A program made the translations under genes and the position numbers. The notes beneath the pieces were generated by a model that made no database searches, had not been told where the DNA came from, and was given only the letters and a program-made list of their open reading frames with translations. A stretch of DNA of 64,000 nt from Chamaelirium japonicum (lineage: Eukaryota; Streptophyta; Magnoliopsida; Liliales; Melanthiaceae): NCBI GenBank assembly GCA_947650365.1, contig OX393553.1, forward strand, positions 38,981,449 through 39,045,448, read 5' to 3'. Below, piece by piece: positions 6,110 to 52,912 of the stretch (positions are counted from its first letter, which is position 1; each line of letters begins with the position of its first letter).

Positions 6110-6530
6110 GCAAACAAGAACACTCCACACCAACCACAACCACACAAGGACTCGCCCGCTCAGGAGTCCAACTTTGCCCTCTTCTCCTCTAGAGCTCTGA
6201 TAGAGTCAAGAAAAAATCTCACACTATCTAACTCAGGAGTAGTGATAAACCCACACTTTCTAGCTATGTCCAGAATTACATCATCCTCCAAAAAAGATAG
6301 GGGGAGGGACACAGAAGGATCAGCCTGGTCCATGTCTAGAAGACGCATCTTGGACCGAACAAGAGCCTGCGCCAGCCGAGGGTCGTCCGAAGAGCGCTGC
6401 AAAATCTGCCGGAAGCTCCTCCTTGCAGAACAGCAGTAGGGGGTACGTGCGCTCCCTCAAACGAAAAAATGCCGACATTATGAAAAGTGCCCAGCTCTCG
6501 ATTATAATCCAAACCTGCGTCCTGGGAGAA

Positions 6531-7886
6531 TTACTGCAGGGAAGGCGTACCTGGCTCCTGGCTGCTGCTCGCCTCACCTCCCGCCGGACCCATCCCTGCA
6601 GATGGCGGACCAGGGAACCTCGGAGGCCCGGTGGACGGCTGCCGGAATCGAGTGGGCTGCGGCGAGACCACCGGCAGACCGAATCCCGGAGGAATCACCG
6701 GCTCTCCAGAGGGCATACGGTCCCCGAAGCCATGATCCAGAGGAGGCAGGTGCCCAACAGGGGGAGGAGGGAGCGAAGTGCAGTCCCCTAGCAACTGGGT
6801 GGATAGCCGGACCCTGAAGACTCCGCATCCATGGGCAAACTGGATCGAAGGGGGGATGAGGATCGGCTCGTAACAGAGCATGGTCGCCTGGCAGAATCGG
6901 CGATGGGAGATTGAGGGGAACACGTTATGGCACTCGCGCACCTCGCCGTAGGGGCTGAGCAGCGTCCGCAGCGAGCCTTCCCCCCAGGCGTCAAAAGGGA
7001 GCCCGAAAATTGTGACTCGCAAAGCTGTCCTCCGCCGCCGCGAGACCGCCCCGGACATCTCCTCCCAAGGTCGGAAGGAGACGGAAACTGCTCCCAGATC
7101 CCTCACCCCCCGACCTACCTCGATCTCCAGAAATTGCCGGAATGGGAATTCCACAAGGAACTCGCCATTCCCAATTTCCTGGGTAGGCCACTCCCACGAC
7201 CCCTGCCACACGTGCCTGAGGTGACCGGAAAGTTCCGCCGCCGTCACCGCCTTCCGGAAGACCCGACATACCCCTGAACGATCCAGGATCTCCATCATCT
7301 CCCCCCTCCGAGGGTCCACCGGCAGCTCCCTGGATGATCCTGAGCCCGCCGAGGAACCAGTCGAGCCAGACGAACGGGCCATCCCGCACCGGTGTGAGGT
7401 GTGACCGACCTTCCCACAGGCGAAGCAGACAAGTGGGTTACGGCAGGCGGTGACAACGTGGTCGCGCTCTCCACACCGATGACAGCGACGGACCTGAGAA
7501 AGACGCCCTCCTCGAAAGGATCTAGAAGATCGCCCGGCCGGAACCCTAGACCCCCCCGAACCGCTCGCAGCCCCCGGAGACCAAGCCGGGCGGCGCACTA
7601 CATCCGCGAAGGAGACTCTCTGCGGGGGTGTTGCTGTAGATGGTGGTTTTGAAACGCCCCCGGGACGCCTATCCCGGGAACGACGTTCCGCCTCCACCCC
7701 TCCAGAAACCCTCCCCCCGAGAGCCCTACCTCCTGAACGAGATGCACCTCGGGAAGCTGAAGACTTAGAGCGGCTATGGGATTCGGGGCATGGGGGACTT
7801 CCCCCTAGATCTCCCCCGGATCTCCCTGGTCTTCGAGGAGCCTCGGGATCGCCCTCTCGCCATCCGCCTCCGGGTTTTTCCTTCAA
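6531..7886 (-). CDS. LINE ORF1: nucleic-acid-binding protein with two zinc knuckles
   Basis: The 451-aa open frame encodes the RNA-binding partner that packages LINE RNA. The first 130 residues are Gly/Ser/Arg/Pro-rich and basic. Two CX2CX4HX4C zinc knuckles follow at about residues 135-148 (CHRCGERDHVVTAC) and 154-167 (CFACGKVGHTSHRC). After them comes an RNA-binding-like domain with VTIFGLPFDAWGEG, which resembles the RRM-like part of plant L1 ORF1 proteins. The C-terminus is Pro-rich. The frame has no internal stop. A separate open frame at 6402-6160 in the ORF1-ORF2 spacer (start MQRSSDDPRLAQAL) is not recognised; it may be a former C-terminal part of ORF1 in another frame. The start Met at 7886 is the first available and could be too long or too short. 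Confidence 0.8.
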   Translation of the reverse strand: MKEKPGGGWREGDPEAPRRPGRSGGDLGGSPPCPESHSRSKSSASRGASRSGGRALGGRVSGGVEAERRSRDRRPGGVSKPPSTATPPQRVSFADVVRRPAWSPGAASGSGGSRVPAGRSSRSFRGGRLSQVRRCHRCGERDHVVTACRNPLVCFACGKVGHTSHRCGMARSSGSTGSSAGSGSSRELPVDPRRGEMMEILDRSGVCRVFRKAVTAAELSGHLRHVWQGSWEWPTQEIGNGEFLVEFPFRQFLEIEVGRGVRDLGAVSVSFRPWEEMSGAVSRRRRTALRVTIFGLPFDAWGEGSLRTLLSPYGEVRECHNVFPSISHRRFCQATMLCYEPILIPPSIQFAHGCGVFRVRLSTQLLGDCTSLPPPPVGHLPPLDHGFGDRMPSGEPVIPPGFGLPVVSPQPTRFRQPSTGPPRFPGPPSAGMGPAGGEASSSQEPGTPSLQ

Positions 7887-8136
7887 TCGCGGGAAGCCGA
7901 GCTGCTCGAAGAGACTCCGTGTGGCGCGGATCGGGGTTTGGGAGGTCCAGATCGGGGCCGGGAATGGCTGGCGGGGTGGGATGCGATCGGATCACAACGA
8001 CGGTGCGGCAGCGACCCGCTCAATCCGACGGGGCGGGCATCCTCTTCATGCCGACGGGCCGGCTCCAGTCCGACGACGCCGTTCTAGCACCAGATCTTCT
8101 TGTCCAATAAGGCACCAAGAACGGAGTCGAGCAGGG

Positions 8137-10534: not shown

Positions 10535-10554
10535 GTACACTACAACAAAGAGGG

Positions 10555-11285
10555 TCTTTACCGACGGACATTTTTATCACCGTCGGTAATAATACACTTT
10601 TTACCGACGGTGACAATAATATCCGTCGGTATTATAACTTCAATTTTTTAAATTTTTTTTGCATATTTATTACCGACGGTCAAATAGTATTCGTCGGTAC
10701 AATTATTTATACCGACGGTACATATATGTACCGTCAGTAATATACTTTATACCGACGGCTTCATAAAGACCGTCGGTAAAATGTCATGACGGAACTCAGC
10801 GTAAAAACCAAGTCTCTGGAAAAAATAGAACCCTGAGTTTCGTCGGAGATTGTTACCGACGGACTTTATATTTCCGTCGGTATAAATATTTATACCGACG
10901 GAGATTATATGGCCGTCGGTACGATACCGACGGTAATTAAATATCCGTCGGTAAAATTGTCCCGACGAAACTCAGGGTAAAAACCGAGCCTCTGGAAAAA
11001 AATGGAACCCTGAGTTTCGTCGGCGGTTTTTACCGACGGACTAAATATTTCCGTCGGCATAACTAATTATACCGACGGAAATTATATGTCCGTCGGTACA
11101 ATACCGACGGTAATTAAATATCCGTCGGTAAAATTGTCCCGACGAAACTCAGGGTGAAAACCCGAGCCTCTGGAAAAAATGGAACCCTGAGTTTCGTCGC
11201 TGATTTGTACCGACGGACATTATTATACCGTCGGTATAAAGTAATTATACCGACGGAAATTATAGTTCCGTCGGTAAAAACTCCT
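10555..11285 (+). promoter_or_regulatory. CACTA left subterminal repeats
   Basis: More than twenty copies of taccgacgg or its complement ccgtcggta occur in both orientations. Three hairpins are superimposed about 177 bp apart (near 10,788, 10,963 and 11,141), with arms cgacgaaactcagggt and accctgagtttcgtcg. In En/Spm the equivalent repeats bind TnpA, which brings the two ends together and controls the promoter; the same role is inferred here. Confidence 0.8.
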
Positions 11286-11545
11286 TACTTATCCACCACA
11301 GCCTGCACCCTTTTCTTTTTGTGTTTCGACTCCGGCGCGCGCCCCTCTCTCAATCTCTCTCTCTCTCTCATCGACCCGACCCCCCGGCGACCCCGTCCCC
11401 CTCCGGCAGCCCCGCGATCCCCTCCGGCCACCCATCCCCCTCCCGGCCACCCATCCCCCTCCCGACCTCCGCCCCTCCCCGGCCTCCCGGCCCTCTCTCT
11501 CTCTCCCCGGCCTCCTCCCCCCCTCCCCGGCCTCCCTAGCAGCCT

Positions 11546-11582
<37 letters not shown>

Positions 11583-11729
11583 CACCTGTCTCTCTCTCTC
11601 TCGATCTAAACCCCCCCTCCGGCCGGCCACCCATCCCCTCCCTTGCACCTCCGGCCACCCCTCCGCTTTCTCGCGCCACCGACTACGACACCCATCCTCC
11701 TCCTTCTCGAGGCCTGCCGACCATCGCTG
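11286..11729 (+). other. Probable 5' UTR exon and leader of the CACTA genes
   Basis: The sequence is C-rich with CT microsatellites and has no long frame of its own. It ends in the strong splice donor CGCTG|GTGAGC at 11,729/11,730. A fitting acceptor, tatagccag, ends at 12,743, eleven bases before the transposase ATG. The same donor could in principle also join the acceptor tttcag at 17,927 before the second gene, as in En/Spm, where one primary transcript gives both proteins. The transcription start is not determined. Confidence 0.5.
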
Positions 11730-11759
11730 GTGAGCTCCTCCTCCTCCTCCCTTTCCCCC

Positions 11760-12000
11760 TTCGGTTAATTTGTGGTAATATATTGTGGTAATTTTTATTT
11801 AGGTAAAATCACAGGAATTAAATATAGTGTGGTATTGTGGTAATATATTGTGGTAATTTATTTAGGTAATATATTGTGGTAATTTTTATTAGGTAATTTA
11901 TTGTGGTAATTTTTATCTTGTGGTAATATATTATGATTTACAACAATACCATAATTTGTGGTAATATATTTGTGGTAATATATTGTGGTTAATTCCCTCA
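11760..12000 (+). repeat. tgtggtaat low-complexity repeat inside CACTA
   Basis: The unit ttgtggtaatatattgtgg recurs several times. Related repeats (gtggtaatatttgataa) lie near the other end of the transposon at about 25,960-26,090. The function is unknown. The stretch falls in the proposed first intron. Confidence 0.7.
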
Positions 12001-12014
12001 TTTGGTAATTTTTA

Positions 12015-12229
12015 CACTGTTTTAAAACTCGCCGAGTCGACTCGAAACTCGGCCGAGTTAACTCGACTCGGCTGAGTTTCGATCCGACTCGGTCCAAAAC
12101 TCGAGTTTCGATCCGACTCGGCTGAGTTTCGATCCGACTCGAGTTTTGTCGGGTTTTAGCCGAGTTGTCGTGTCTACTCGACTCATTAAGGTTTCGAGTC
12201 GAGTCGAGTTTTCATGTTTTAAAACATTG
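12015..12229. mobile_element. Small MITE nested in the CACTA element
   Basis: The ends cactgttttaaaac (12,015) and gttttaaaacattg (to 12,229) form an inverted repeat. attttta flanks both sides (12,008-12,014 and 12,230-12,236). The interior is made of CGAGTCGACTCG-like motifs, so it folds on itself. The 215-bp length fits a MITE; a 7-bp duplication does not decide the superfamily. Confidence 0.6.
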
Positions 12230-12753
12230 ATTTTTATCCTATCAAAACTGAATTGAATGGGGGGCAAAATGTAGTTTTTAGACTAGGGTGAGCGTCGGTT
12301 TTGTCGGTCGGTTTCGGTGTGGGTTTTGTCGGTTATATTTTTTTCGGTTTACGAAAAATCAAGATCGAAACCGAAACCGAAATGGTCGGTTTTTGTCGGT
12401 TCGGTGTGATATGAGGTATGCTAAAGCCATAAATCTACTCGAGCGATAGAGAGAACCGTCAGACCCCAAGTGTTTACTTGATGAGGCTCCCTGACTTGTT
12501 GACTTACTGTCGCATAACTTTGGTGCTATGCCTAGCATTCGAACTATCAGCAGTTCAAATGCTGGCCAGCAACCCTAGGTTTACTATGTGACTAGTCTAC
12601 TCATCATAATACACTCATCCATTAGGGATGTGGATGGCCTGTAGAAGTTTTGGTTCGGTGTTCCATACCCAGGAACCGAAACCGAAATTGTGCGGAGTCT
12701 TATAACATTGTTTGAAATTATATGTCAGGTGTTGTATAGCCAGATAGACGAAG

Positions 12754-15700
12754 ATGTCTTCGATCGATAAGAGTTGGATGCGTAATTCGAATCGCATGAG
12801 CCAAGAGTACAGAGAAGGAGTCAGGAAATTTCTGGATTTTGCATTTGAGCGTCTTGCACCGCTTGATGGAAAAATTGTGTGTCCCTGTATAGACTGCGGA
12901 AGGGTGATTAGGAAGGTTCGAGAGGAATGTGAGGTTGATCTGGTAATGCGTGGCATTGACGTTACCTATACCCGTTGGTTCTCGCACGGTGAGGAGCTAG
13001 ATGCAGTCCCCATGGCAGCTCACGGTGAAACTTCAAACACAGTGATCGCTGATGATAATATTAATACAGACGATGACGATGACATGCAGGGTATGATACA
13101 TGATTTGCAAGGTGGAATAGGCACGGAAACACCGTCAGGTGATCAGCCCAATATCGAAGCGGACAAGTTCTACAGATTGCTTAAAGATGCCGAACAACCT
13201 CTATACCCGGGGTGTGAGAAGTTTTCAAAACTCTCTTTCACTGTAAAGCTTCTTCATTTGAAGTGCCTCAATGGTTGGAGTAATAAGTCATTTAATATGT
13301 TGGTAGAGTTGCTGAAAGAGGCTTTTCCTATGGGTGAGACAGTACCGAAATCATTCTACGAGGCGAAGAAGACAATTAAAGATCTCGGTTTGGGTTATGA
13401 GAAAATTGATGCATGCGTGAACGATTGTATGTTGTACCGGAAAGAGTACGAACATGCGCGGTCATGCCACATATGCGGAGCAACGAGATATAAAGAGACG
13501 GATGCCGAGTCTAGTACCAGTCGAAGGAAGAAAAATGTATCTGCAAAGGTTCTCCTATACTTCCCGCTCAGGGACAGGCTTCAGAGGTTGTTTATGTCAT
13601 CGAAGACTGCTGAGCACATGAGGTGGCATGCACGAGAACGTACAGATGACGGGATTATGAGACATCCGGCCGACTCTCTGACGTGGAAAGATTTTGATCA
13701 TACATATCCTGAATTCGCATGTGAAGTTCGCAACGTCAGGTTAGGGCTTGCTAGCGATGGCTTCAATCCCTTTGGGAATATGAGTGTGTCGTACAGCATT
13801 TGGCCAGTTGTCCTAGTTCCATACAATTTGCCTCCCTGGATGTGCTTAAAAAAGCCATACACAATGCTCTCCTTGCTCATTCCCGGACCCAGGTCGCCTG
13901 GTAATGATATTGACGTTTACTTGCAGCCGTTGATTGAGGAGTTGAACGAGTTATGGGAAGTTGGGGCCGATACGTATGATGCCTCGTTGCGCCAGAATTT
14001 TCGGATGCATGCGGCACTTCTATGGACCATCAACGATTTTCCTGCATATGCCAACTTATCCGGGTGGAGTACTAAAGGAAAATTGGCGTGCCCTACATGC
14101 AATAAGGAGACAGATTCATTACGATTGAAGAACGGAGGCAAGTTCTGTTATATGGGCCATCGAAGATTCCTTGTTGACGGCCATAAGTGGAGGCAGAACA
14201 AAAGAGCTTTCAACGGCAAGAAGGAACTTGCAAAGGCCCCGGAGCAGCTTTCGGGGGTAGAAGTCTTGTGCGAATTGGATCAGCTTGATGCCGTGACACT
14301 TGGAAAAGGTAAAAAGAAGAGAACGCATGAAGATTCTACGCGTGAGCATAACTGGAAGAAGAAGAGTATTTTCTTTAAACTACCGTACTGGAGCAGCCTA
14401 CTCTTGCGGCATAACTTGGATGTCATGCATATTGAGAAAAATGTGTGTGACAACATTATAGGAACACTGCTGAATCTCGACGGTAAGACGAAGGATAATC
14501 TTAAATCTCGTCTCGATCTTAAGGAGTTGGGCATCCGAAAATCACTTCATCCCCAAGAGATTGGGGATAAGTATGTGTTGCCAGTTGCATGCTACACCAT
14601 GAGCTCACAGCAAAAGGCAGCCTTATGTGCATTCCTACGGTCTGTGAAAACGCCAGACGGTTATTCTTCGAATATCGCACGATGCGTGCAAGAGAACGGC
14701 CGGAAGTTGTCTGGATTAAAGAGCCACGATTGTCATGTTCTTATGCAGCGATTGTTATCTCTTGCTATACGTGGGAATTTAACCGAAGAGGTGTCCGGTC
14801 CGTTAATTGAGCTCAGCACTTTTTTCAGACAGTTGTGCTCGAAGGTACTTAGAGTGGACCAACTTGAACAGATGGAGAGGGATATTGCGCTCACATTGTG
14901 CAAGTTAGAGATGATATTTCCACCTTCATTCTTTGATGTCATGGTGCATTTGACCGTTCACTTGGCAAATGAGGCCAAACTCGGCGGCCCAGTTCATTAC
15001 CGGTGGATGTATTTTATCGAGAGGTAATCGTCTCGTCTCATTCGCACAATGTATTTGATCGTTCTTGATATATTCATACAAATATTTTTTTCTCAAATTA
15101 GGTACTTGCGAACATTGAAATCATATGTTCGTAATAAAAGTCGTCCGGAGGGATCAATTGCTGAAGGATACCTAGCAGAAGAATGTTTAACATTCTGCTC
15201 AAGATACCTACATGGTATAGACACGCGATTCAATCAACTTGAGCGGAACTATGACGGTGGTCCAATAGACTTCGATGGGGGTCTGTCTATATTTGCCGAA
15301 ATGGGTAGACCTGTAGGAGGAGGCAAAACCCGTCGATTGTCTGTAGATGAGATTCAACAGGCACATATGTATGTGTTGCGCCAATGTGATGAAGTGTGGC
15401 CATTCATTGAGTAAGCATTTTACGATCATTTACTCATTCTTTCAGTCCATTCATTAAGTATATGTGCTAATTATAATCTAATTCATAACCGGTAAAACAG
15501 GAAGCATAAAGCCATCATTAATAATCGGGGTATTCGAAATGCTCCCCAAATTCATGATCGTGAATTCCCATCGTGGTTCGAGAAACACGTAAGTATTCAC
15601 ATCATTACTGAATTTCATTGACATCCATTACCGAACAATAATTATGTGTTCATATCATGAATGTCGTGTGGTTATTATAGGCACAGGAGCTGCACGACAA

Positions 15701-16355
15701 CCACGATCCGCTGATGAATGAGGATCTCTGGCGCTTATCTTGTAGTCCTTTGCAAGACGCAATATCGTACGATGGTTATATCGTGAACGGTTATAGATTT
15801 CGGACGAAAGATAGTGAAAAATCACGAAGAACCCAAAATAGTGGGGTTGTCGTCAACGGTGAGCAAGAAGAATTAGAAAATATCGACTTCTACGGCGTCC
15901 TCAACGAAATTCTCGAGATTAAATTCCTTGGCCAAAATCGGATCGTATTATTCAAATGCGATTGGTATGATGTTAATAATCGCGGGACTGGTTATAATGT
16001 CGATAAATACGGTTTTATCAGCATCAACACTGCCAAGAGATTGAATACCCAATATGAAGATCCATTCATTCTTGCCTCTCAAGCGCAACAGATATTTTAT
16101 GCACCGGATAATACCTCTCCAGGTTGGCAAATTGTAGTCAGGTCACCACCCAGAGATTTTTACGACATGGGAGACAAGGATGCGGGGGTCGTCGATGATG
16201 ATTTGGATGCATACCAGAATGATGAGATAATCATTGTCGACGCAGTGCACGACGAAAATGAAGATGTCGACAATATAAACTGGACAGCGAATGCAGATCA
16301 AATAATAGAAGAGGGAAGCGATGAGAGTGACAGAGATGAGACAGAAAATGACTAG
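12754..16355 (+). CDS. CACTA transposase, TNP2/TnpD type (4 exons, 1113 aa)
   Basis: This is the catalytic transposase that cuts and reinserts the CACTA element. Exons are 12,754-15,023, 15,102-15,410, 15,501-15,588 and 15,681-16,355. All introns are GT-AG (gtaatc...attag, gtaagc...acag, gtaagt...atag) and the coding length of 3342 nt keeps one frame. Residues 1-90 match the transposase-associated zinc-binding domain (CPCIDCGRV, then YTRWFSHGEE). The TNP2 core follows, with CHICGATRYKE, DGFNPFGNMS, WPVVLVPYNLPPW and PCTCNKE-like cysteine motifs (ACPTCNKET). DUF4218 comes next (GLKSHDCHVLMQRLL and PVHYRWMYFIER, continuing in exon 2). Exon 4 carries the DUF4216 region (FYGVLNEILEI, VLFKCDWYDV) and an acidic tail. 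No internal stop or frameshift is seen. The start is the first Met fitting the family (MSSIDKSWM). Expression is probably driven from the CT-rich leader at 11,286-11,729. Confidence 0.9.
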
Positions 16356-16452
16356 ACCGTATGTAAATCAAATTGTTTCATATTTAAATCATACTATTTC
16401 CACGATTCATATGTAAATCATACCGTTTCATATGTAAATCATACCGTTTCAC

Positions 16453-17760
16453 CGATTTACGATCCGACCGATTCACCGATTTAGAGTCTAAGAGTTGGAA
16501 AATCATAAGTTAGCGTGTTTCGGATATGAAATAGGTTTCGATTCGATCGGATCGTCATCGGATCGGCATCCGATAATTCGAAGTTGGAATTATTTCGTAT
16601 TTCGGACTTGCGAGCGGGTTCTAATTGGATATTTGACCAATTTACGCTCCGATTCACCGATTTAGAGTCTAAGTGTTGGAAAATCATAAGTTAGCGTGTT
16701 TCGGATATGAAATAGGTTTGGATTCGATCCGATCATCATCGGATCGGCATCCGATAATTCGAAGTTGGATTTATTCCGTATTTCGGACTTGCGAGCGGGT
16801 TCTAATTGGATATTTGACCAATTTACGCTCCGATTCACCGGTTTAGAGTCTAAGTGTTGGAAAATCATAAGTTAGCATGTTTCGGATATGAAATAGGTTT
16901 GGATTCGATCCGATCGTCATCGGATCGGCATCCGGTAATTCGAAGTTGGAATTATTCCGTATTTCGGACTTGCGAGCGGGTTCTAATTGGATATTTGACC
17001 AATTTACGCTCCGATTCACCGATTTAGAGTCTAAGTGTTGGAAAATCATAAGTTAGCGTGTTTCGGATATGAAATAGGTTTGGATTCGATCCGATCGTCA
17101 TCGGATCGGCATCCGATAATTCGAAGTTGGATTTATTCCGTATTTCGGACTTGCGAGCGGGTTCTAATTGGATATTTGACCAATTTACGCTCCGATTCAC
17201 CGGTTTAGAGTCTAAGTGTTGGAAAATCATAAGTTAGCGTGTTTCGGATATGAAATAGGTTTGGATTCGATCCGATCGTCATCGGATCGGCATCCGGTAA
17301 TTCGAAGTTGGAATTATTCCGTATTTCGGACTTGCGAGCGGGTTCTAATTGGATATTTGACCAATTTACGCTCCGATTCACCGGTTTAGAGTCTAAGTGT
17401 TGGAAAATCATAAGTTAGCGTGTTTCGGATATGAAATAGGTTTGGATTCGATCCGATCGTCATCGGATCGGCATCCGGTAATTCGATGTTGGAATTATTC
17501 CGTATTTCGGACTTGCGAGCGGGTTCTAATTGGATATTTGACCAATTTACGCTCCGATTCACCGATTTAGAGTCTAAGTGTTGGAAAATCATAAGTTAGC
17601 GTGTTTCGGATATAAAATAGGTTTGGATTCGATCCGATCGTCATCGGATCGGCATCCGATAATTCGAACTTGGAATTATATTCCGTATTTCGGACTTCCG
17701 AGCGGGTTCTAATTGGATATTTGACCACTTTACGATCCGATTAACCGATTTAGAGTCTAA
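16453..17760 (-). repeat. 181-bp satellite array, left arm (about 7 copies)
   Basis: Head-to-tail units of 181 bp run in the orientation opposite to the array at 19,690-25,690. Unit marks on the plus strand are tttagagtctaagtgttgg and cggatcggcatccg. Most units here are of the A type, with the palindrome GATCCGAT-GACG-ATCGGATC intact. The array lies between the transposase stop and the second gene, followed by AT-rich tttcatatgtaaatca repeats to 17,927. Repeated 68-codon frames are a by-product of the unit, since 181 is not a multiple of three. Confidence 0.93.
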
Positions 17761-17927
17761 CTGTTTCATATTGTTTCATATTGTTTCATATTGCGAGCGG
17801 GTTCATATTGTTTTATATTGTTTCATATGTAAATCATACTATTTCATATATAAATCAAACTGTTTCATATTGTTTCATATGTAAATCTTAAATCTTACTG
17901 TTTCATATGTAAATTAAATTGTTTCAG

Positions 17928-19627
17928 ATGGCATCACGGTCATATGTTCGTAGAGGCAGAGGCAGAGGCAGGGGTGGGGTAGCTCAGAGCGCTCCGGCTG
18001 CCACCCCAGGGTCCGAGGCTGAGCCGTCCGGATCTGGTAGTGCTGTTCCTCTCTCCACACCAGCTCCTGCTGTGGTCACAGCCTCCGGAGCTTTGAGCAG
18101 TGCTCAGCACTCGGCTGCAGCGTCTACGCCCACAGGTAATGTTTAGATCTAAAGTTTTATACATGTTGTAAATACTTCTTCAGTACTGATGTATATTTTA
18201 TTTGCAGGGTCGACCAGGTACGTAGGCGACCGGGGCGTGACGACGGCCCGGCGCTTGTCGGCCTTACGCGAGCCGCTGTCCCTACAGTGGAGCGGCCATA
18301 CCTTTGTGGGCGAGAACGCTTCTGACGCCGCCACGTGGGTCGGCATGATAGTACGGGAGGAGAGGAATGCCCCGATTGTGGGGTTAAGGGGGTGGAAGAA
18401 CATTGATGCATCCTATAAGGAGAGGATGTATCAGCAGTTTTTGGTACGTTAGTTTCATTAAAGCATTTTAGAATAATATCGTACTTCTTTATAATTTGAT
18501 TTGATAAAATGACTTGTTTCTAAATTGATTTTACAGGAGAAATTTAAATGGGAGAACATGGAAACCGACACCCATCGGGAGGACTTGTGGAAGACGATGG
18601 GTGAGCGGTACAGGGATTACCGTCACGAGCTCTACAAGCTCTACGGTTACTTGGTCGGCCAGCCGGCTGAGGAGGTACAGGCTGCGGCTGGGACGAGAGA
18701 CGCGCCACCGCTATACATTCTACAGTTTTTGGTCGCTCACTGGGCCACCCCTAACTTTCAGGTATAATTATAATTTTGTTGATTCGTACTTGTTTTAATG
18801 TTATACTAAAAATTTGTATTGATGTTTCAAAATTTAATCGATTGCACAGAATAAATCTGCTATAGGCAAGCAGAATAGAAGTGCCTCGACGACACCTGCT
18901 CCAGTGAAGGGGAGGACCTCCATGCCCCAGCTTGCCCAGCAGCTGGTAAATGATACAAACATTGTTATTATTTAAAGCTCTATACATGTTATATTAACTC
19001 GTCTATTTATTTTATATGTCCAACAGACACAGTCCTTGGGCCACGAGCCTAATAGGATTGACCTTTTTGAGGCCTCTAGGAGGCGGCGTATCGATGGGGC
19101 ATTTCTGGACGACAGGGTTGCCTCGCAAGTGGTAAGTAATTAAATTACTGTTAATATATTCTTATACATATGCCATAAAATATCATTGAATATCATTGGT
19201 TGTTTTTATATAGGAGAGGATGCGACTTATGGTGACCCCGTCGGGCGAGGCCGGCTCCTCCTCCAGCTCAGTATCTGTCGACTCAGCGATGGATACTGTG
19301 CTGAGACCTGCCACGCACGGCCGTGTCCTCTGTACGGGCCTTGGAGTCACGCCCTCCTCCTACTTTGGACGAGAGGGTATGCGCTCGAGGGCACGGGACA
19401 CCCAGACCGGTGCTATCACTCAGCTGCAGTCTGCGCTAGACGCGGAGCGAGAGCAGAGGCAGGCCCTCGAGCAGAGGATAGAGGCGAAGCGAGAGCAGAG
19501 GCAGGCCCTCGAGCAGAGGGTTGAGGCGGAGAAGAAGGCCCTCGATGAGGAAAGAGAAGCTCGCAGGGAACTGGAGCGTAAATTTAATGAATTCATAAGC
19601 CGGTCTAGCGGTGGCTCATCCTCATGA
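17928..19627 (+). CDS. CACTA second protein, Ptta/En-Spm (TnpA-like) type (6 exons, 427 aa)
   Basis: This is likely the accessory DNA-binding protein of the transposon, the counterpart of TnpA that binds subterminal repeats. Exons are 17,928-18,135, 18,208-18,443, 18,537-18,761, 18,850-18,945, 19,027-19,131 and 19,214-19,627. All introns have GT-AG ends, and the 1284-nt coding sequence stays in one frame. The N-terminus is basic and Gly/Arg-rich (MASRSYVRRGRGRGRGG), then Ala/Ser/Pro-rich. Exons 2-5 carry the plant transposase (Ptta/En/Spm) domain: GWKNIDASYKERMYQQF, KFKWENM, the LFEASRRRR segment and DDRVASQVVERM. The last exon encodes a coiled coil with two near-identical Glu/Arg/Gln repeats (EREQRQALEQR), probably for dimerisation. 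The start follows an acceptor-like tttcag, so a 5' UTR intron is likely. A second donor (atcag|gtactt) lies just after the stop. Confidence 0.87.
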
Positions 19628-19689
19628 TCAGGTACTTACTAATCTTTATAATATTAGCAAAAAATATGAATCTTACTAATTTGAGTTTT

Positions 19690-22600
19690 GATCATATTAT
19701 CACACTTATGATTTTCCAACACTTAGACTATAAATCGGTAAATCGAATCGTAAATGGTCACTCTCTCTCTCATGGTAATGATGTAGCCTCTGTTTTTCTT
19801 TTAAATACGGAATAATTCCAAGTTCGAATTACCGGATGCCGATCCGATGACGATCGGATCGAATCCAAACCTATTTCATATCCGAAACACGCTAACTTAT
19901 GATTTTCCAACACTTAGACTCTAAACCGGTGAATCGGAGCGTAAATTGGTCAAATATCCAATTAGAACCCGCTCGCAAGTCCGAAATACGGAATAATTCC
20001 AACATCGAATTACCGGATGCCGATCCGATGACGATCGGATCGAATCCAAACCTATTTCATATCCGAAACACGCTAACTTATGATTTTCCAACACTTAGAC
20101 TCTAAACCGGTGAATCGGAGCGTAAATTGGTCAAATATCCAATTAGAACCCGCTCGCAAGTCCGAAATACGGAATAATTCCAACATCGAATTACCGGATG
20201 CCGATCCGATGACGATCGGATCGAATCCAAACCTATTTCATATCCGAAACACGCTATTTATGATTTTCCAACACTTAGACTCTAAACTGGTGAATCAGAG
20301 CGTAAATTGGTCAAATATCCAATTAGAACCCGCTCGCAAGTCCGAAATACGGAATAATTCCAACTTCGAATTACCGGATGCCGATCCGATGACGATCGGA
20401 TCGAATCCAAACCTATTTCATATCCGAAACACGCTAACTTATGATTTTCCAACACTTAGACTCTAAACCGGTGAATCGGAGCGTAAATTGGTCAAATATC
20501 CAATTAGAACCCGCTCGCAAGTCCGAAATACGGAATAAATCCAACTTCGAATTATCGGATGCCGATCCGATGATGATCGGATCGAATCCAAACCTATTTC
20601 ATATCCGAAACACGCTAACTTATGATTTTCCAACACTTAGACTCTAAATCGGTGAATCGAAGCGTAAATTGGTCAAATATCCAATTAGAACCCGCTCGCA
20701 AGTCCGAAATACGGAATAATTCCAAGTTCGAATTATCGGATGCCGAGCCGATGACGATCCGATCGAATCCAAACCTAGTTTATATCCGAAACACGCTAAC
20801 TTATGATTTTCCAACACTTAGACTCTAAATCGGTGAATCGGAGCGTAAATTGGTCAAATATCCAATTAGAACCCGCTCGCAAGTCCGAAATACGGAATAA
20901 TTCCAAGTTCGAATTATCAGATGCCGAGCCGATGACGATCCGATCGAATCCAAACCTATTTTATATCCGAAACACGCTAACTTATGATTTTCCAACACTT
21001 AGACTCTAAATCGGTGAATCGGAGCGTAAATTGGTCAAATATCCAATTAGAACCCGCTCGCAAGTCCGAAATACGGAATAATTCCAAGTTTGAATTATCG
21101 GATGCCGAGCCGATGACGATCCGATCGAATCCAAACCTATTTTATATCCGAAACACGCTAACTTATGATTTTCCAACACTTAGACTCTAAATCGGTGAAT
21201 CGGAGCGTAAATTGGTCAAATATCCAATTAGAACCCGCTCGCAAGTCCGAAATACGGAATAATTCCAACTTCGAATTACCGGATGCCGATCCGATGACGA
21301 TCGGATCGAATCCAAACCTATTTCATATTCGAAACACGCTAACTTATGATTTTCCAACACTTAGACTCTAAATCGGTGAATCGGAGCGTAAATTGGTCAA
21401 ATATCCAATTAGAACCCACTCGCAAGTCCGAAATACGGAATAATTCCAAGTTCGAATTATCGGATGCCGAGCCGATGACGATCCGATCGAATCCAAACCT
21501 ATTTTATATCCGAAACACGCTAACTTATGATTTTCCAACACTTAGACTCTAAATCGGTGAATCGGAGCGTAAATTGGTCAAATATCCAATTAGAACCCGC
21601 TCGCAAGTCCGAAATACGGAATAATTCCAACTTCGAATTACCGGATGCCGATCCGATGACGATCGGATCGAATCCAAACCTATTTCATATCCGAAACACG
21701 CTAACTTATGATTTTCCAACACTTAGACTCTAAATCGGTGAATCGGAGCGTAAATTGGTCAAATATCCAATTAGAACCCACTCGCAAGTCCGAAATACGA
21801 AATAATTCCAAGTTCGAATTATCGGATGCCGAGCCGATGACGATCCGATCGAATCCAAACCTATTTTATATCCGAAAACTTATGATTTTCCAACACTTAG
21901 ACTCTAAATCGGTGAATCGGAGCGTAAATTGGTCAAATATCCAATTAGAACCCACTCGCAAGTCCGAAATTCGGAATAATTCCAAGTTCGAATTATCGAA
22001 TGCCGATCCGATGACGATCCGATCGAATCCAAACCTATTTTATATCCGAAACACGCTAACTTATGATTTTCCAACACTTAGACTCTAAATCGGTGAATCG
22101 GAGCGTAAATTGGTCAAATATCCAATTAGAACCCGCTCGCAAGTCCGAAATACAGAATAATTCCAAGTTCGAATTATCGGATGCCGAGCCGATGACGATC
22201 CGATCGAATCCAAACCTATTTTATATCCGAAACACGCTAACTTATGATTTTCCAACACTTAGACTCTAAATCGGTGAATCGGAGCGTAAATTGGTCAAAT
22301 ATCCAATTAGAACCCGCTCGCAAGTCCGAAATACGGAATAATTCCAAGTTCGAATTATCGGATGCCGAGCCGATGACGATCCAATCGAATCCAAACCTAT
22401 TTTATATCCAAAACACGCTAACTTATGATTTTCCAACACTTAGACTCTAAATCGATGAATCGGAGCGTAAATTGGTCAAATATCCAATTAGAACCCGCTC
22501 GCAAGTCCGAAATACGGAATAATTCCAAGTTCGAATTATCGGATGCCGAGCCGATGACGATCCGATCGAATCCAAACCTATTTTATATCCGAAACACGCT

Positions 22601-25600
22601 AACTTATGATTTTCCAACACTTAGACTCTAAATCGGTGAATCGGAGCGTAAATTGGTCAAATATCCAATTAGAACCCGCTCGCAAGTCCGAAATACGGAA
22701 TAATTCCAAGTTCGAATTATCGGATGCCGAGCCGATGACGATCCGATCGAATCCAAACCTATTTTATATCCGAAACACGCTAACTTATGATTTTCCAACA
22801 CTTAGACTCTAAATCGGTGAATCGGAGCGTAAATTGGTCAAATATCCAATTAGAACCCGCTCGCAAGTCCGAAATACGGAATAATTCCAAGTTCGAATTA
22901 TCGGATGCCGAGCCGATGACGATCCAATCGAATCCAAACCTATTTTATATCCGAAACACGCTAACTTATGATTTTCCAACACTTAGACTCTAAATCGGTG
23001 AATCGGAGCGTAAATTGGTCAAATATCCAATTAGAACCCGCTCGCAAGTCCGAAATACGGAATAATTCCAAGTTCGAATTATCGGATGCCGAGCCGATGA
23101 CGATCCGATCGAATCCAAACCTATTTTATATCCGAAACACGCTAACTTATGATTTTCCAACACTTAGACTCTAAATCGGTGAATCGGAGCGTAAATTGGT
23201 CAAATATCCAATTAGAACCCGCTCGCAAGTCCGAAATACGGAATAATTCCAACTTCGAATTACCGGATGCCGATCCGATGACGATCGGATCGAATCCAAA
23301 CCTATTTCATATCCGAAACACGCTAACTTATGATTTTCCAACACTTAGACTCTAAATCGGTGAATCGGAGCGTAAATTGGTCAAATATCCAATTAGAACC
23401 CACTCGCAAGTCCGAAATACGGAATAATTCCAAGTTCGAATTATCGGATGCCGAGCCGATGACGATCCGATCGAATCCAAACCTATTTTATATCCGAAAA
23501 CTTATGATTTTCCAACACTTAGACTCTAAATCGGTGAATCGGAGCGTAAATTGGTCAAATATCCAATTAGAACCCACTCGCAAGTCCGAAATTCGGAATA
23601 ATTCCAAGTTCGAATTATCGAATGCCGATCCGATGACGATCCGATCGAATCCAAACCTATTTTATATCCGAAACACGCTAACTTATGATTTTCCAACACT
23701 TAGACTCTAAATCGGTGAGTCGGAGCGTAAATTGGTCAAATATCCAATTAGAACCCGCTCGCAAGTCCGAAATACGGAATAATTCCAAGTTCGAATTATC
23801 GGATGCCGAGCCGATGACGATCCGATCGAATCCAAACCTATTTTATATCCGAAACACGCTAACTTATGATTTTCCAACACTTAGACTCTAAATCGGTGAA
23901 TCGGAGCGTAAATTGGTCAAATATCCAATTAGAACCCGCTCGCAAGTCCGAAATACGGAATAATTCCAAGTTCGAATTATCGGATGCCGAGCCGATGACG
24001 ATCCAATCGAATCCAAACCTATTTTATATCCGAAACACGCTAACTTATGATTTTCCAACACTTAGACTCTAAATCGGTGAATCGGAGCGTAAATTGGTCA
24101 AATATCCAATTAGAACCCGCTCGCAAGTCCGAAATACGGAATAATTCCAAGTTCGAATTATCGGATGCCGAGCCGATGACGATCCGATCGAATCCAAACC
24201 TATTTTATATCCGAAACACGCTAACTTATGATTTTCCAACACTTAGACTCTAAATCGGTGAATCGGAGCGTAAATTGGTCAAATATCCAATTAGAACCCG
24301 CTCGCAAGTCCGAAATACGGAATAATTCCAAGTTCGAATTATCGGATGCCGAGCCGATGACGATCCGATCGAATCCAAACCTATTTTATATCCGAAACAC
24401 GCTAACTTATGATTTTCCAACACTTAGACTCTAAATCGGTGAATCGGAGCGTAAATTGGTCAAATATCCAATTAGAACCCGCTCGCAAGTCCGAAATACG
24501 GATTAATTCCAAGTTCGAATTATCGGATGCCGAGCCGATGACGATCCAATCGAATCCAAACCTATTTTATATCCGAAACACGCTAACTTATGATTTTCCA
24601 ACACTTAGACTCTAAATCGGTGAATCGGAGCGTAAATTGGTCAAATATCCAATTAGAACCCGCTCGCAAGTCCGAAATACGGAATAATTCCAAGTTCGAA
24701 TTATCGGATGCCGAGCCGATGACGATCCGATCGAATCCAAACCTATTTTATATTCGAAACACGCTAACTTATGATTTTCCAACACTTAGACTCTAAATCG
24801 GTGAATCGGAGCGTAAATTGGTCAAATATCCAATTAGAACCCGCTCGCAAGTCCGAAATACGGAATAATTCCAACTTCGAATTACCGGATGACGATCGGA
24901 TCGAATCCAAACCTATTTCATATCCGAAACACGCTAACTTATGATTTTCCAACACTTAAACTCTAAATCGGTGAATCGGAGCGTAAATTGGTCAAATATC
25001 CAATTAGAACCCGCTCGCAAGTCCGAAATACGGAATAATTCCAAGTTCGAATTATCGGATGCCGAGCCGATGACGATCCGATCGAATCCAAACCTATTTT
25101 ATATCCGAAACACGCTAACTTATGATTTTCCAACACTTAGACTCTAAATCGGTGAATCGGAGCGTAAATTGGTCAAATATCTAATTAGAACCCGCTCGCA
25201 AGTCCGAAATACGGAATAATTCCAAGTTCGAATTATCGGATGCCGAGCCGATGACGATCCGATCGAATCCAAACCTATTTTATATCCGAAACACGCTAAC
25301 TTATGATTTTCCAACACTTAGACTCTAAATCGGTGAATCGGAGCGTAAATTGGTCAAATATCCAATTAGAACCCGCTCGCAAGTCCGAAATTCGGAATAA
25401 TTCCAAGTTCGAATTATCGAATGCCGATCCGATGACGATCCGATCGAATCCAAACCTAGCTATTTGATATCCGAAACACGCTAAGTTATGATTTTTCAAC
25501 ACTTAGACTCTAAATCGGTGAATCGGAGCGTAAATTGGTCAAATATCAAATTAGAACCCGCTCGCAAGTCTGAAATACGGAATAATTCCAAGTTCGAATT

Positions 25601-25690
25601 ATCGGATGCCGATAATTCTACGATCGGATCGAATCCAAACCTATTTCAAAATCGAAACACGCTAACTTATCATTTTTTAACGCTTAGACT
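19690..25690 (+). repeat. 181-bp satellite array, right arm (about 33 copies)
   Basis: Units start with tgattttccaacacttagac at, for example, 19,899, 20,080, 20,441 and 20,622, and so on to 25,488, spaced 181 bp apart. Exceptions are two 174-bp units (from 21,708 and 23,330) and one short unit near 24,771 (170 bp). A-type units (gatccgatgacgatcggatc) dominate near the second gene and B-type units (gagccgatgacgatccgatc) the middle and far part, with scattered A units. The first and last units are diverged. The whole array can be an intron in the 3' UTR of the second gene. Confidence 0.95.
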
Positions 25691-25742
25691 CAGTTATAGA
25701 TATAAACCATTTTTTTAACAAATACATGTTAATTGCAGGAGC

Positions 25743-25866
25743 AGGGCGGCGTCAGGGGATCGATGAGAGCACCAGCGTTGGTGGTGGGCGGGCGTGGTTG
25801 AGATAGGGCGGCGTCAGGGGATCGATGAGAGCACCGGCGTTGGTGGCGGGCGGGGGTGGTTGAGAT
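25743..25866 (+). repeat. 62-bp tandem duplication
   Basis: Two near-identical copies of a GC-rich 62-bp unit (start agggcggcgtcaggggatc) lie at 25,743 and 25,805. The block directly follows an acceptor-like ttaattgcag ending at 25,738, so it may be part of the last, non-coding exon of the second CACTA gene. Confidence 0.75.
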
Positions 25867-26109
25867 AGGACATGTATCATCTCTCAGTTCTGGATTGTGT
25901 AAATATTATTTTGTAATATATGGTTATTTTTTGTTCTTGTCTATAATTGTCGGCCGAGAACTGTGGTAATATTTGATAATTTGCTGTAATTTTTTATCAA
26001 TTTAGGTAATATTTTATAAATTGTGGTAATATTTGATAAATTGTGGTAATATATTGTGGTATTGAATCACAGGAATTAAATAACATTATTTAGGTAAATT
26101 TATTAAAAA

Positions 26110-26570
26110 AAAAAAAATACTTATTACCGACGGAAATTAATTATTCCGTCGGTAATAATATTTTTATTTTTTTTAAATTATTAATGATTTGCCGACGGCA
26201 TATAATATCCGTCGGTAATATATATAGTATTACCGACGGTTATATGAATTTGGTCGGTAATATATATATTATTACCGACAGTATGAAATATACCCGTCGG
26301 TAAAATGGTTATATATTACCGACGGATTCTTATATTTCGTCGGCAATACTAAATTATATTAGTTTTAAATTGATTAAATATTACCGACGGCGTTAATATT
26401 ACCGTCGGTATTAATTATTATTACCGACGGTAATATTTGGTCCGTCGTATTGTTTTCCCCGACGCCTTCTTTCCCGACAGCAAGCGACGGAAATACCTTC
26501 CGTCGCTATAGAATATTACCGACGAAATTTTAATATTACCGACGGATAGTGTCCGTCGGTAATAACTGTT
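26110..26570 (+). promoter_or_regulatory. CACTA right subterminal repeats
   Basis: More than ten ccgacgg/ccgtcgg motifs in both orientations lie within 460 bp of the right end, mirroring the left end. They are the expected binding sites for the TnpA-like protein encoded at 17,928-19,627. Confidence 0.8.
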
Positions 26571-26633
26571 TTTTTTGTAGTGGTAGCTGGGTGCGAATGG
26601 ATCTAGACAGCTATGATCTCTTGCTTGTGCGTG

Positions 26634-30789: not shown

Positions 30790-31275
30790 GATAACTCATG
30801 GACGAGCTGATCGGGTGTGACCTGGTTAGGTGCGGACTGGTCGTGGGCGAGCTGATCGCGTGCGAACTGGTCGTGGGCGAGCTGATCGAGTGCGGACTGA
30901 TCATGGGCGAGCTGATCGCATCCCAATCCGCGGGGTCTGTGTTAAGACACCATTTCAACTTTATAAAGACTACGATCGCCTTTTGGTCGTGGGCGAACTG
31001 ATCGCGTGCGAATAAGGCGAGTTCTTGAGCTAATTGCAGGTGATGATTGACCGCGGACATGCTGATCGCATGCGGATAAGGCAAGCTCTTGAGCGAACTG
31101 CAGGTGATGATTGACCATGGACGAGCTGATTGCATGATGATAAGGCGAACTCTTGAGTGAGCTACATGTGATGATTGACCACGGACAAGCTGATCGTGTG
31201 CGGATAAGGCAAGCTCTTGAGCGAACTGTAGGTAATGGTCGACCATTGGTGAGCTGATCGCGTGCAAGCTGGCCA
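30790..31275 (+). repeat. GAGCTGATCG tandem repeats, about 33- and 64-bp periods
   Basis: Between 30,790 and 30,925 a unit of about 33 bp built on gggcgagctgatcg(a/c)gtgcg recurs. From about 31,010 to 31,275 a 64-bp unit (gataaggcaagctcttgagc and then gatgattgaccacgg) occurs about four times. It precedes the gypsy-type fossil and may be its long leader or LTR. Confidence 0.75.
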
Positions 31276-35015: not shown

Positions 35016-37796
35016 TCATACGCTAGTATCCGGCGTCGTCGACCTGCTCCCCCATGGAGCCGCGACGGAATCCGGCGAAAAAGGCAGTGGCACATTCTTC
35101 GGCAACCCGGCATCCGCCCTCGCCGGAGCGTCGGCCTCCGACGCCTTCTCCTCCTTGAGCCCCCCACTCTGTATCCACCTCAACTCCTCGAGCACCTCCT
35201 TTATCGGAGGCCGCATCTCCCTGTCCCCCTGCAAGCACCTGAAGGCCAGCTCCGCCACCAGGGTGATCATCCTCTCCTTCTCTGCATCCGACCGAAACCC
35301 GAGTCCCGGGTCGACCAACTGGTCCAATTCACGGCTCTGGATCCTGTTGATCGCCAGACTAGCCAGATTGATCTCATTCCAGCTCCGGCCGATGTCCACG
35401 GCCGGCTTCGACGAAATGAGCTCCACCAGCACCACCCCGAAGCTGTAGACATCGCTCTTGTCGGTGAGCTGGTAGCACTGGTGGTACGCGGGGTCGACGT
35501 ACCCCGGGGTCCCCTGCGGAAGGGTGGAGACATGGGTGGCGTCCAGGGGGAAAAGCCGCGACAGCCCGAAGTCCCCGACTTTCACGTGGAAGCCGTCGTC
35601 GAGCAGGATGTTGTTGGTCTTGACGTCCCGGTGGATGATCTGGGGCTCGGCGGCGTGGAGGTATGTGAGCGCGTCGGCGGTCTCGATGGCGATGCCCATC
35701 CGGACGGGCCACGCGAGGCCGCCCTCCACCACGCGGGGGCCGTGGAGGTGGTCTGCGACGGTGCCGTTGGACACGAACTCGTAGACGAGGAGGAGCTCGC
35801 GGCTGTGGCGGGAGGTGCAGCCGTAGAGGGTGACCAGGTTCTTGTGGCGGAGGCCGGACAGGATGTCAACCTCGTTCATGAACTGCTCGACGCGCTTGCC
35901 GTTGCTCTCGTAGAGCCGCTTGACGGCGACGGTGCGCCCATCTCTCAGCTTGCCTGCAGAGGATCAGAGCTTCAGTTTGTGCCAGTAAGCTCTATTACAT
36001 GTTAACCTATTGGAGGGAAAGAAAGATTTGAATGAATCAGGTTTGGATGCCGATTTTGGTTGGCCAAGAATAGGAAATTTGCCGGATTTTGATCTATTTG
36101 TTAAAAAAATGTCGATCAACGATCGGTATGTTATAAAAAAAATTTGGAAATGGATGAAGCAAGATGGAATTTATCATTGAACAAGAAGGAATCTTTAACT
36201 TAAATGAGATTAGAGGTTAATTTTTAGTGAAATTGTCCAAACAAAAAAAAAAGGAATGTCGAATTTCCATAAAATTTCAGTCATTTCGGTGTCGAACAAA
36301 AATTTGGTATCCAAATTTCAGACAATATCTATGGTGGATCCTCAAGAAAGAGAGATCTCAATCATTTCATATCATATTTGTCAACAATTGATTCCATGCT
36401 CTGAAATAGGCCTGAAAACAAGAGGAATTGAATTACCTTCATAGACGGTGCCAAACCCACCATCGCCGAGCTCCCTGGTCTCATCAAAGCCATTGGTGGC
36501 GTTATCGAGCTCGTCATAGGAGAAGATGTGGGTGCGGAAGTTGGCGCCGCCCAATTCGGGGTACTTCGTGGAGGATGGGTCGATGAGGATGTTGGAGGAG
36601 GTGGAATGCTTCCGTCGCTTCTTGCGCTGGTACCAGAGAAGGCACATGAGGAATGCTGCGGTGAGGACGGTGCCTCCAACGCCAACGCCTACTCATAGAA
36701 CAAGGTAATCATGTTTACATGGTGATAAGATGAAAGCCTTTAAGAAGGAAATTGTTAGGGATAGGAGGAGCATGCTTTGTTTACCTATTAAAATATTCTT
36801 CACATTGCTCATCCCTGTTGCATTTAAGTAACAACCATCACATGAAGAGGTTAGTGCAGAGTTCAATTGATAACTAGTACTTCAAATGAACTTTCAAGCC
36901 AAACTAAGATGTTTTGCAGAATCAATTAGTTAAATCAAGTAGATCAAGGTCTAGATATCAATAAAATCATCATGATTCCTAGTTTCATAAGAATTTTTTT
37001 TTAAAAAAAATTATTTTTTCTCAAGAAAAAAAAAAGAGAAAACGAGAAACTTTGATGATGGAGATCGAGAGCTACTTTGCGTAGGTGAGCATCTGGTGCC
37101 GCATGTACACTTGGAAACTCCTGCGGTGCTATCGGTACCGCAATTGTATCTTATTTGGCAGTCGAAGCAGTCCGAATGAAGTGTCGTTTGCGGTGTGAAA
37201 TCAGCAGAGCGCAGGGAGAGGCCGTCACTATCTCCCCCAAATAACAACTTCCACTCAAAAGAAGGGGGGTGAGGGGCCAAGCCGTAACCAGGATGATCGC
37301 CCGGCTGGTCGTCCGAGCTACGCCAATACTGGAGAGTGTAATTGCGGCAGGGAGTGGAGTAATAGAGTTCACTGAAGGTATCATGGGAAAAATTATAATC
37401 CTTCAGCTTGCAATTGAAAAAGTACTGACTGAAGCTTGGATATCGAACAACATGGGTATGATCAAAAGGAGGGAAGGGAGCTGCGAATTCGTAAACAAAG
37501 TTGCAGTCTGATCTCCGCAAGCGATTGCTGAGAACCTGATCTTGAATCGTGATTGTTTTTTCGCTATATGAGATGGTTTTCACTGCATAGAAGGGCTCAT
37601 TCCCCCGGAACTGGATCATCGGAAGGAAATCGATGCATTGGATCATGTAAATTCCTCTGCGTTGAAGATCGGTCGTGAAAGGGTACCTGATTTCAATGGT
37701 GGTATTTCCACATGGTAGCTCAATTGGACATGAGCAATCAAGATTGGGGAGAACGAAGACGAGGAGGAAGGCGTAGTAGGAGAAGGGAAGAGCCAT
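35016..37796 (-). CDS. LRK10L/WAK-like receptor protein kinase (3 exons, 637 aa)
   Basis: This is a plasma-membrane receptor kinase of the LEAF RUST 10 DISEASE-RESISTANCE LOCUS-like group. Exons on the minus strand are 37,796-37,076, 36,691-36,437 and 35,953-35,016. Both introns are GT-AG and phase 1, and the 1914-nt coding sequence has no stop before the end. Exon 1 encodes a signal peptide (MALPFSYYAFLLVFVLPNL), a GUB_WAK_bind domain beginning CSCPIELPCGN with IRYPF, and a WAK-associated C-terminal part with CFDCQIRYNCG. Exon 2 has the transmembrane helix (GVGVGGTVLTAAFLMCLLW), a basic KKRRKH stop-transfer and the start of the kinase (GDGGFGTVYEG). Exon 3 has AVKRLYE, HRDVKTNNILL (an RD kinase), DFGLSR and GTPGYVDPAY. 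The residue usually acidic in the last motif (DPE/DPD) is Ala here. Such proteins act in stress, ABA or pathogen signalling, but the ligand is unknown. Two kinase-less relatives lie upstream at 39.8-40.7 and 52.0-52.8 kb. Confidence 0.93.
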
Positions 37797-37834
37797 AGGA
37801 GATTAACACACTTGAGTTCCGCAACCTAACCTCA

Positions 37835-51912: not shown

Positions 51913-52017
51913 TAATTCTCCAAAATCCTCAAAAGCTCAATAAATTGGACTGAAAACGAAGAACGAAGAGAATGAGATACGAGAATCAGAGCGAAGGATC
52001 GAGAAATCCGCGCATAC

Positions 52018-52762: not shown

Positions 52763-52912
52763 GATCAACGGATACACTAACAGAGGAGATCGAGTTTGAA
52801 CTGGTTCTACTTGTAAAAATGGATTTGCTCTTCCCTTCTTCATAACCATTGGTACTGTTTGACCTTCAACGGTCAAAGGGATGGAAGAATCAAAGGTTCA
52901 TCATCGGGTTGT

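Follow-up and report, generated by a model that had tools for sequence, protein, structure and literature searches.

Why should a transposon carry two arrays of one satellite, in opposite orientations, on either side of one of its genes? The question is raised by a CACTA (En/Spm-type) element of Chamaelirium japonicum (Melanthiaceae), found in a 64,000-nucleotide stretch of assembly GCA_947650365.1 (contig OX393553.1, positions 38,981,449 to 39,045,448 of the forward strand); this stretch is hereafter called the window, and coordinates refer to it. A preliminary description of the window had seen in the inverted pair a possible built-in source of small interfering RNAs (siRNAs) that could silence the element or its relatives. 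Here, we compare this element with other copies found by searching the genome (1.52 Gb), and we put at roughly two in three the probability that the pair arose by one inverted duplication and has since been an intronic passenger with no dedicated role in silencing.

An element with two opposed arrays

The left array (16468-17765) runs forward and holds 7.2 units of 181 bp with 97% matches; the right array (19803-25691, minus strand) is inverted with respect to it and holds 32.7 units of 181 bp with 96% matches (Tandem Repeats Finder in both cases), degenerate unit fragments stretching it to about 19706 and 25696. The preliminary description, with its about 7 left units opposite about 33 on the right, had been accurate here, its limits being off by no more than 15 bases on the left and 1 base on the right. 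It had also anticipated more than 1.2 kb of near-identical sequence, and the self-comparison that it proposed indeed yields arms of 1212 nt in opposite orientation with 96-97% complementarity, far beyond chance. The symmetry that it saw in their placement is absent: the arrays that flank gene 2, the second gene of the element, are unequal, at 7 versus 33 units and 1.3 versus 5.9 kb.

At the level of single units the arms form a mosaic. Five left units (L02-L06, 16646-17550, plus strand) are near-identical to gene-proximal right units, differing from R28, R29, R28, R29 and R31 by 1, 1, 2, 0 and 0 positions per 181 bp, whereas the outer left units are less alike, the best right matches of L01 and L07 (the first and last full left units) showing 7 and 4 differences. 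The likely source block of the left array is thus the gene-proximal group of type A units R28-R31 (19941-20663, minus strand). The right array has expanded separately, as in two adjoining nine-unit higher-order repeats of 1622 bp each (21569-23190 and 23191-24812, minus strand) between which there are 7 differences. A derivation of the satellite from the element's own genes was considered and rejected, the unit giving weak short matches when compared by BLAST with the rest of the window (best E 0.065); the exact satellite pattern had 0 matches in viral contigs.

Both arrays lie within an intact-looking CACTA element of 16,045 bp on the plus strand (10538-26582), both ends of which were located by script and by reading. 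Its left end reads CACTACAACAAAG, with the terminal CACTACAAC at 10538, its right end finishes in GTAGTG at 26582, and a target site duplication, GTA, stands on either side (10535-10537 and 26583-26585). Short subterminal repeats of the type ACCGACGG/CCGTCGGT occur in both orientations at both ends (10550-11280 and 26115-26570). Just inside these regions, at 11770-11990 and 25960-26055, are TGTGGTAATA-type repeats, in the same orientation at both places.

Gene 1 (12754-16355, plus strand) encodes a tnp2-type transposase, recognized in Pfam searches of two single open reading frames (ORFs) by the domains Transposase_21 (PF02992, 2e-102), Transpos_assoc, DUF4218 and DUF4216; its predicted exons are 12754-15023, 15102-15410, 15501-15588 and 15681-16355, the frame having been read through exons 1-2. 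Gene 2 (17928-19627, plus strand) is TNPA-like: six exons (17928-18135, 18208-18443, 18537-18761, 18850-18945, 19027-19131 and 19214-19627) join without a stop into an open frame of 427 amino acids with the Transposase_24 domain (PF03004, 2.7e-16) of the Ptta/En/Spm family, which bears out the earlier statement that a Ptta/En-Spm gene stands between the arrays. The names TNPA and TNPD and the pattern of splicing referred to here are those of En/Spm. The element thus has both a tnp2 transposase and a TNPA-like second protein. The family looks autonomous.

The left array falls between the stop of gene 1 (16355) and the ATG of gene 2 (17928), which AG directly precedes, in a predicted intron (16359-17927, plus strand) that begins with GTATGT and ends with TTTCAG before the ATG. 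The right array falls in a predicted intron of the 3' untranslated region (UTR), at 19632-25738 on the plus strand, whose donor (CAG/GTACTT) stands four bases after the stop codon of gene 2 and whose acceptor (TTAATTGCAG/G) leads into a GC-rich predicted 3'UTR exon (25739-25930, plus strand). This exon contains a 62-bp tandem duplication (25743-25869), which is not a multiple of three. Splice sites were scored with approximate matrices; on this scale the eight introns that interrupt the two genes have donors of -1.0 to 5.3 and acceptors of 0.2 to 9.5, and the two acceptors next to the arrays (5.3 and 6.7) and the right donor (4.1) score between these limits. The signals recur in other copies, the AG before the gene 2 ATG and the GTAC past its stop in 31 of 31 each and the GTATGT donor in 21 of the 22 where it is readable, which, the copies being young, is weak evidence of constraint. 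Moreover, 14 ATGs intervene between the gene 1 stop and the gene 2 start, so that gene 2 would need either the left array to be spliced out or a promoter of its own. In the soybean element Tgmt*, cDNAs are described as defining one transcription unit over both ORFs, with the first exon joined to downstream exons (PMC2613891), and by analogy one pre-mRNA would hold both arms here. From the splice signals and the soybean cDNAs we infer that both arrays probably lie in introns of a single transcription unit.

Copies in the genome and the origin of the left array

Two samples of copies were compared. For one, 38 satellite clusters besides that of the window were drawn by eye among the matches listed for a two-unit query, and the first 19 of these, ten kb each, were studied, making 20 copies with the window. 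Because this set had been picked by its satellite, ten further copies were chosen by the gene 2 protein: eight near-identical ones (3.1 kb each, covering the inner array ends) and two, L028 and L029, that are the most diverged among the exon-6 matches listed. The inverted pair is present in 30 of 31 copies, namely the window, the 19 satellite-picked copies, L028, the eight protein-picked copies and one further copy, L038; L029 is the exception and the only one among the protein-picked ten (9/10). The placement around one gene, described beforehand as unusual, is accordingly no peculiarity of this locus.

Orientation is uniform: in 20/20 of the satellite-picked set with the window the left array is forward and the right inverted, and no unit of opposite orientation was counted in either. 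Lengths vary. Fourteen of these copies have a left array of 7.2 units and two have one of 5.2; single copies have 6.2, 9.2 and 16.2. The right array is complete in six copies, with 21.2 to 33.1 units, and in 14 runs past the ten-kb stretch. The longest left array, of 16.2 units, belongs to L022 (G000:C7:25162242-25172241), where it makes an arm pair of about 2.8 kb. In L025 (G000:C3:89838986-89848985) gene 1 is deleted and the left array shortened; a short TTTGA, common to both sides, marks the place where sequence of the first intron (at about 12717 of the window) meets the left array directly. In the 21 copies in which both arms, gene 2 and the end of gene 1 are visible, there is no sign that recombination between the arms has inverted gene 2.

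A pattern for the left array's 3' junction found 589 sites in the genome at up to two mismatches, and 0 when reversed as a control. Contig 1 and that part of contig 2 which was listed have 19 matches to exon 6, and 18 of these carry the left junction at the expected place, as judged by eye; the nineteenth, L038, has a left array of 6.2 units and no match to the junction pattern, so that 589 is an undercount.

How the left array arose is indicated by the most diverged copies. L029 (G000:C164:216600-226599) has a right array only, of 29 units and more, inverted, and its spacer, from the stop of gene 1 to the ATG of gene 2, consists of 241 bp of 21-bp repeats (ACC, then GTATGT to TTTTAG) without satellite. 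L028, about 3% from the window copy, has nearly the same left junctions on both sides, and two shared junctions point to one insertion event. The distances, taken without an outgroup, are 2.9% between the window and L028, 3.6% between the window and L029 and 4.4% between L028 and L029. To the right of the window's left array, among 21-bp repeats, lies a lone 12-base satellite piece, GCGAGCGGGTTC (17791-17802), which is present in L028 too and absent from L029; it is likely debris of the copying event.

As five left units stand 0-2 differences from gene-proximal right units, inverted copying of that end is the most likely source of the left array, and the order of the left units equals that of the right if L04-L05 duplicates L02-L03. 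The array would have arisen a single time and multiplied afterwards: for 121 of 124 full left units in the 20 copies, some other copy has a left unit that differs at 0-1 positions, which implies that the array predates the amplification. Continuing conversion between the arms was considered as well, and no clear exchange emerges; among the 124 left units just 2, which both belong to the window copy, are closest to their own right array, in a weak test whose comparison pool, the right arrays of the other 19 copies, was 19 times larger.

The simplest history would have the right array first, one inverted copy of it into the other intron, and amplification last. On this account the family originally had its satellite only in the last (3'UTR) intron of gene 2, until in one ancestor the small intron of 21-bp repeats that separates gene 1 from gene 2 received an inverted copy of about 1 kb of the gene-proximal array end, likely by template switching during repair of an excision gap. 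Both arrays would be removed by splicing with their introns and hence tolerated, their lengths shifting by unequal exchange, and would have been carried along as the subfamily multiplied to several hundred copies.

Passenger or device

Wherever one transcript covers both arms, it is physically possible for the pre-mRNA to form a hairpin of about 1.3 kb whose loop would contain the exons of gene 2. The predicted cofolding energy of the window's arms is -2174 kcal/mol, against -425 and -293 for the single arms. In all 21 copies tested, the best arm pair (0.77-2.76 kb, 95-97% identity, perfect stretches of 148-382 bases) is long and similar enough for double-stranded RNA (dsRNA).

The copies are young. 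Gene 2 has a mean pairwise divergence of 0.33% among 19 copies at different places (L025 left out), which together with at least 589 left-junction sites indicates recent multiplication. Measured against the majority sequence it has 54 substitutions, of which C>T and G>A make up 47, a strong signature of deamination which suggests that these young transposon copies are methylated. The unique coding changes (35 nonsynonymous and 10 synonymous against an expected ratio of 2.75, p=0.61) fit neutrality, and the frame is open in 17 of 20 copies and interrupted in two, L025 standing outside the test.

If siRNAs from a hairpin directed methylation to the arms, the C>T changes there might show it in the CHH context. 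The counts were made on copies chosen by similarity of the left arm, with the query stretch itself excluded. In the left arm (14 of 19 copies, those of equal length) they are 11/2352 at CG, 3/840 at CHG and 2/2282 at CHH; in gene 2 (19 copies) 17/3534, 15/3667 and 15/9120; in gene 1 (16 of 19 copies, three dropped for shifts) 11/2304, 6/1376 and 22/6144. At this low power there is no CHH excess in the left arm relative to either gene. A small flank to the right of the left array gave 0/76, 2/152 and 2/456. The first 440 bases of the right intron (17 of 19 copies: CG 7/952, CHG 3/374, CHH 6/1411) were set aside, because gains of units shift the alignment there and 27 of 43 changes are not C>T.

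Against this background the reading first proposed for the locus can be judged. Unspliced or readthrough transcripts would fold into 1.2-1.3 kb of dsRNA and be diced into siRNAs that direct methylation to the arms and, both in cis and in trans, silence the family or hold it back; several hundred near-identical copies with an intronic hairpin would then, on transcription, possess a built-in brake on copy number, gained by one inverted duplication and carried through the amplification burst. The length and likeness of the arms in every copy tested, the strength of the predicted cofold and the C>T-dominated changes are all in keeping with this, as is the CHH count at the start of the right intron, which exceeds that of gene 2, but in a shifted alignment. 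There are parallels in maize, where Mu killer silences MuDR and a long hairpin has been proposed (PMC3440606) and where structured regions of transposable elements are reported to map more small RNAs (PMC10760457). Yet the left arm is without a CHH excess (at low power, in copies picked by similarity in this arm), siRNAs from the satellite would not match coding exons, and the subfamily that bears the hairpin is the one that amplified, to at least 589 junction sites, so that the hairpin did not stop its own spread. Even for Mu killer, its authors are cited as tying silencing to short antisense transcripts incapable of large hairpins, the long hairpin being a possible contribution (PMC3440606). 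The indirect evidence is thus lukewarm, and we regard such a brake, in all its parts, as unlikely, if still worth tentative consideration. Nor does the arrangement itself speak for design: apart from its unequal arms, it goes back apparently to one shared insertion, so that symmetry was rejected as a sign of design, and the orientation is a single draw with a prior of 1/2.

The same pairing might instead act on splicing. Paired introns could loop out the exons of gene 2, leading to back-splicing into a circular RNA or to skipping of gene 2, and the ratio of transposase to TNPA-like protein would then depend on arm length. The predicted introns that contain the arrays do stand on either side of the gene 2 coding exons, arm length does differ among copies (5.2 to 16.2 left units), and reverse-complementary flanking introns are mentioned together with plant circular RNAs in the literature at hand; but pairing of long introns would compete with splicing, and L029, which has no left arm, still matches all gene 2 exons queried. 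To us this appears distinctly improbable. Somewhat different is the idea that no copying within the element took place, the two arrays having been taken separately from a genomic satellite and opposed by chance. Captured satellite is described in CACTA elements of Chenopodium quinoa (PMC8978399), but here particular variants are common to left units and to specific right units of the proximal end, the unit order agrees on the duplication of L02-L03 noted above, and all 19 satellite clusters studied, of the 38 among the matches listed, are this CACTA (free arrays being possible); separate capture is accordingly a highly doubtful proposition. As for an assembly inversion or collapse, which the preliminary description had named as what could undo its claim, long near-identical arrays are hard to assemble, and the unit numbers may not be exact. 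The pair nonetheless has the same orientation at thirty loci on many contigs, with differing unit numbers, and L028 has nearly the same junctions on both sides of its left array as the window, so that an artefact is very unlikely, to the point of being almost negligible.

Several observations weigh against our preferred history of a single inverted duplication carried as a passenger. The left-intron donor, ACC/GTATGT, scores below 2 on the approximate matrices, and the left array itself holds three donor-like sites that score above 4. From gene 2 to the end of the element there is a single AATAAA; it stands at 20534, inside the right array, and could end transcripts there. The empty state of the left intron is represented by one copy, L029, and a clean loss in that copy is possible since 21-bp repeats flank the array and the distances lack an outgroup. 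Presence in nearly all copies is also what one would expect of a useful hairpin; finally, that the arrays would be intronic and yield no siRNAs is a reading of DNA.

Neighbours, relatives and implications

Elsewhere the window contains, on the minus strand, remains of a LINE-like (long interspersed nuclear element) retrotransposon (2478-7991; RVT_1, Exo_endo_phos, zf-RVT and a weak DUF4283) and two genes or fragments of the wall-associated-kinase type (37011-37802 and 51986-52897; GUB_WAK_bind, WAK_assoc). Tandem repeats of 64 bp and related ones (GAGCTGATCGCGTGCGGATAAGG...) occupy 30830-31265.

That CACTA elements can hold satellite-like arrays, as the preliminary description stated, is confirmed by Jozin of quinoa, which measures 16,523 bp and has, near its 3' end, 32.5 x 171 bp of satellite (5,550 bp) (PMC8978399). 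In its single 3' array, in an element of about the same size, Jozin resembles the family described here, and similar arrays are reported from further quinoa elements (PMC8978399). The right array is of this kind, in which about 30 monomers of 170-180 bp stand toward the 3' end of the element. The difference is that one array per element is described there, with a monomer of 171 rather than 181 bp and, in the text available, no inverted second array (PMC8978399), while here a second, inverted one occupies 16468-17765. A relation of another sort is seen in a satellite family whose monomers come from a fragment of a CACTA transposase (PMC7320549). Tgmt* of soybean shares the tnp2 and TNP1-type ORFs in one transcription unit, with precursor and mosaic cDNAs, but it measures 20.5 kb, has another subterminal motif, and its main text is without the word satellite (PMC2613891).

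Other systems are functional parallels, not relatives, and this holds for the structured maize elements too. Mu killer of maize is likewise an inverted duplication derived from a transposon, for which long hairpin RNA and siRNAs were proposed; it is, however, a single rearranged Mutator derivative with transposase sequence in its arms, in contrast to a satellite pair in autonomous-looking CACTA copies (PMC3440606). In rice, small RNAs arise from CACTA transcripts in the case of miR820 (PMC4211545, citing Nosaka et al. 2012), but this is a microRNA directed at the host's DRM2 (PMC4211545), and not a kilobase satellite hairpin. The CACTA literature covered (titles and the openings of abstracts, most subscription journals being outside it) describes no second inverted array around the second gene. 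Within that compass the inverted second array is new for CACTA elements, the single 3' array being already known.

Whether an intronic inverted repeat in an active transposon feeds silencing is a point that is usually inferred, and for it this family offers a natural series: several hundred young copies with the left junction, arms that range from 5.2 to 16.2 units on the left among the copies compared, and at least one copy that lacks the left arm, L029, a useful comparison for questions about small RNAs. If the arms are inert, then kilobase hairpins in introns can be tolerated through an amplification burst. The family also shows how satellite arrays can spread between the introns of a CACTA element and switch orientation.

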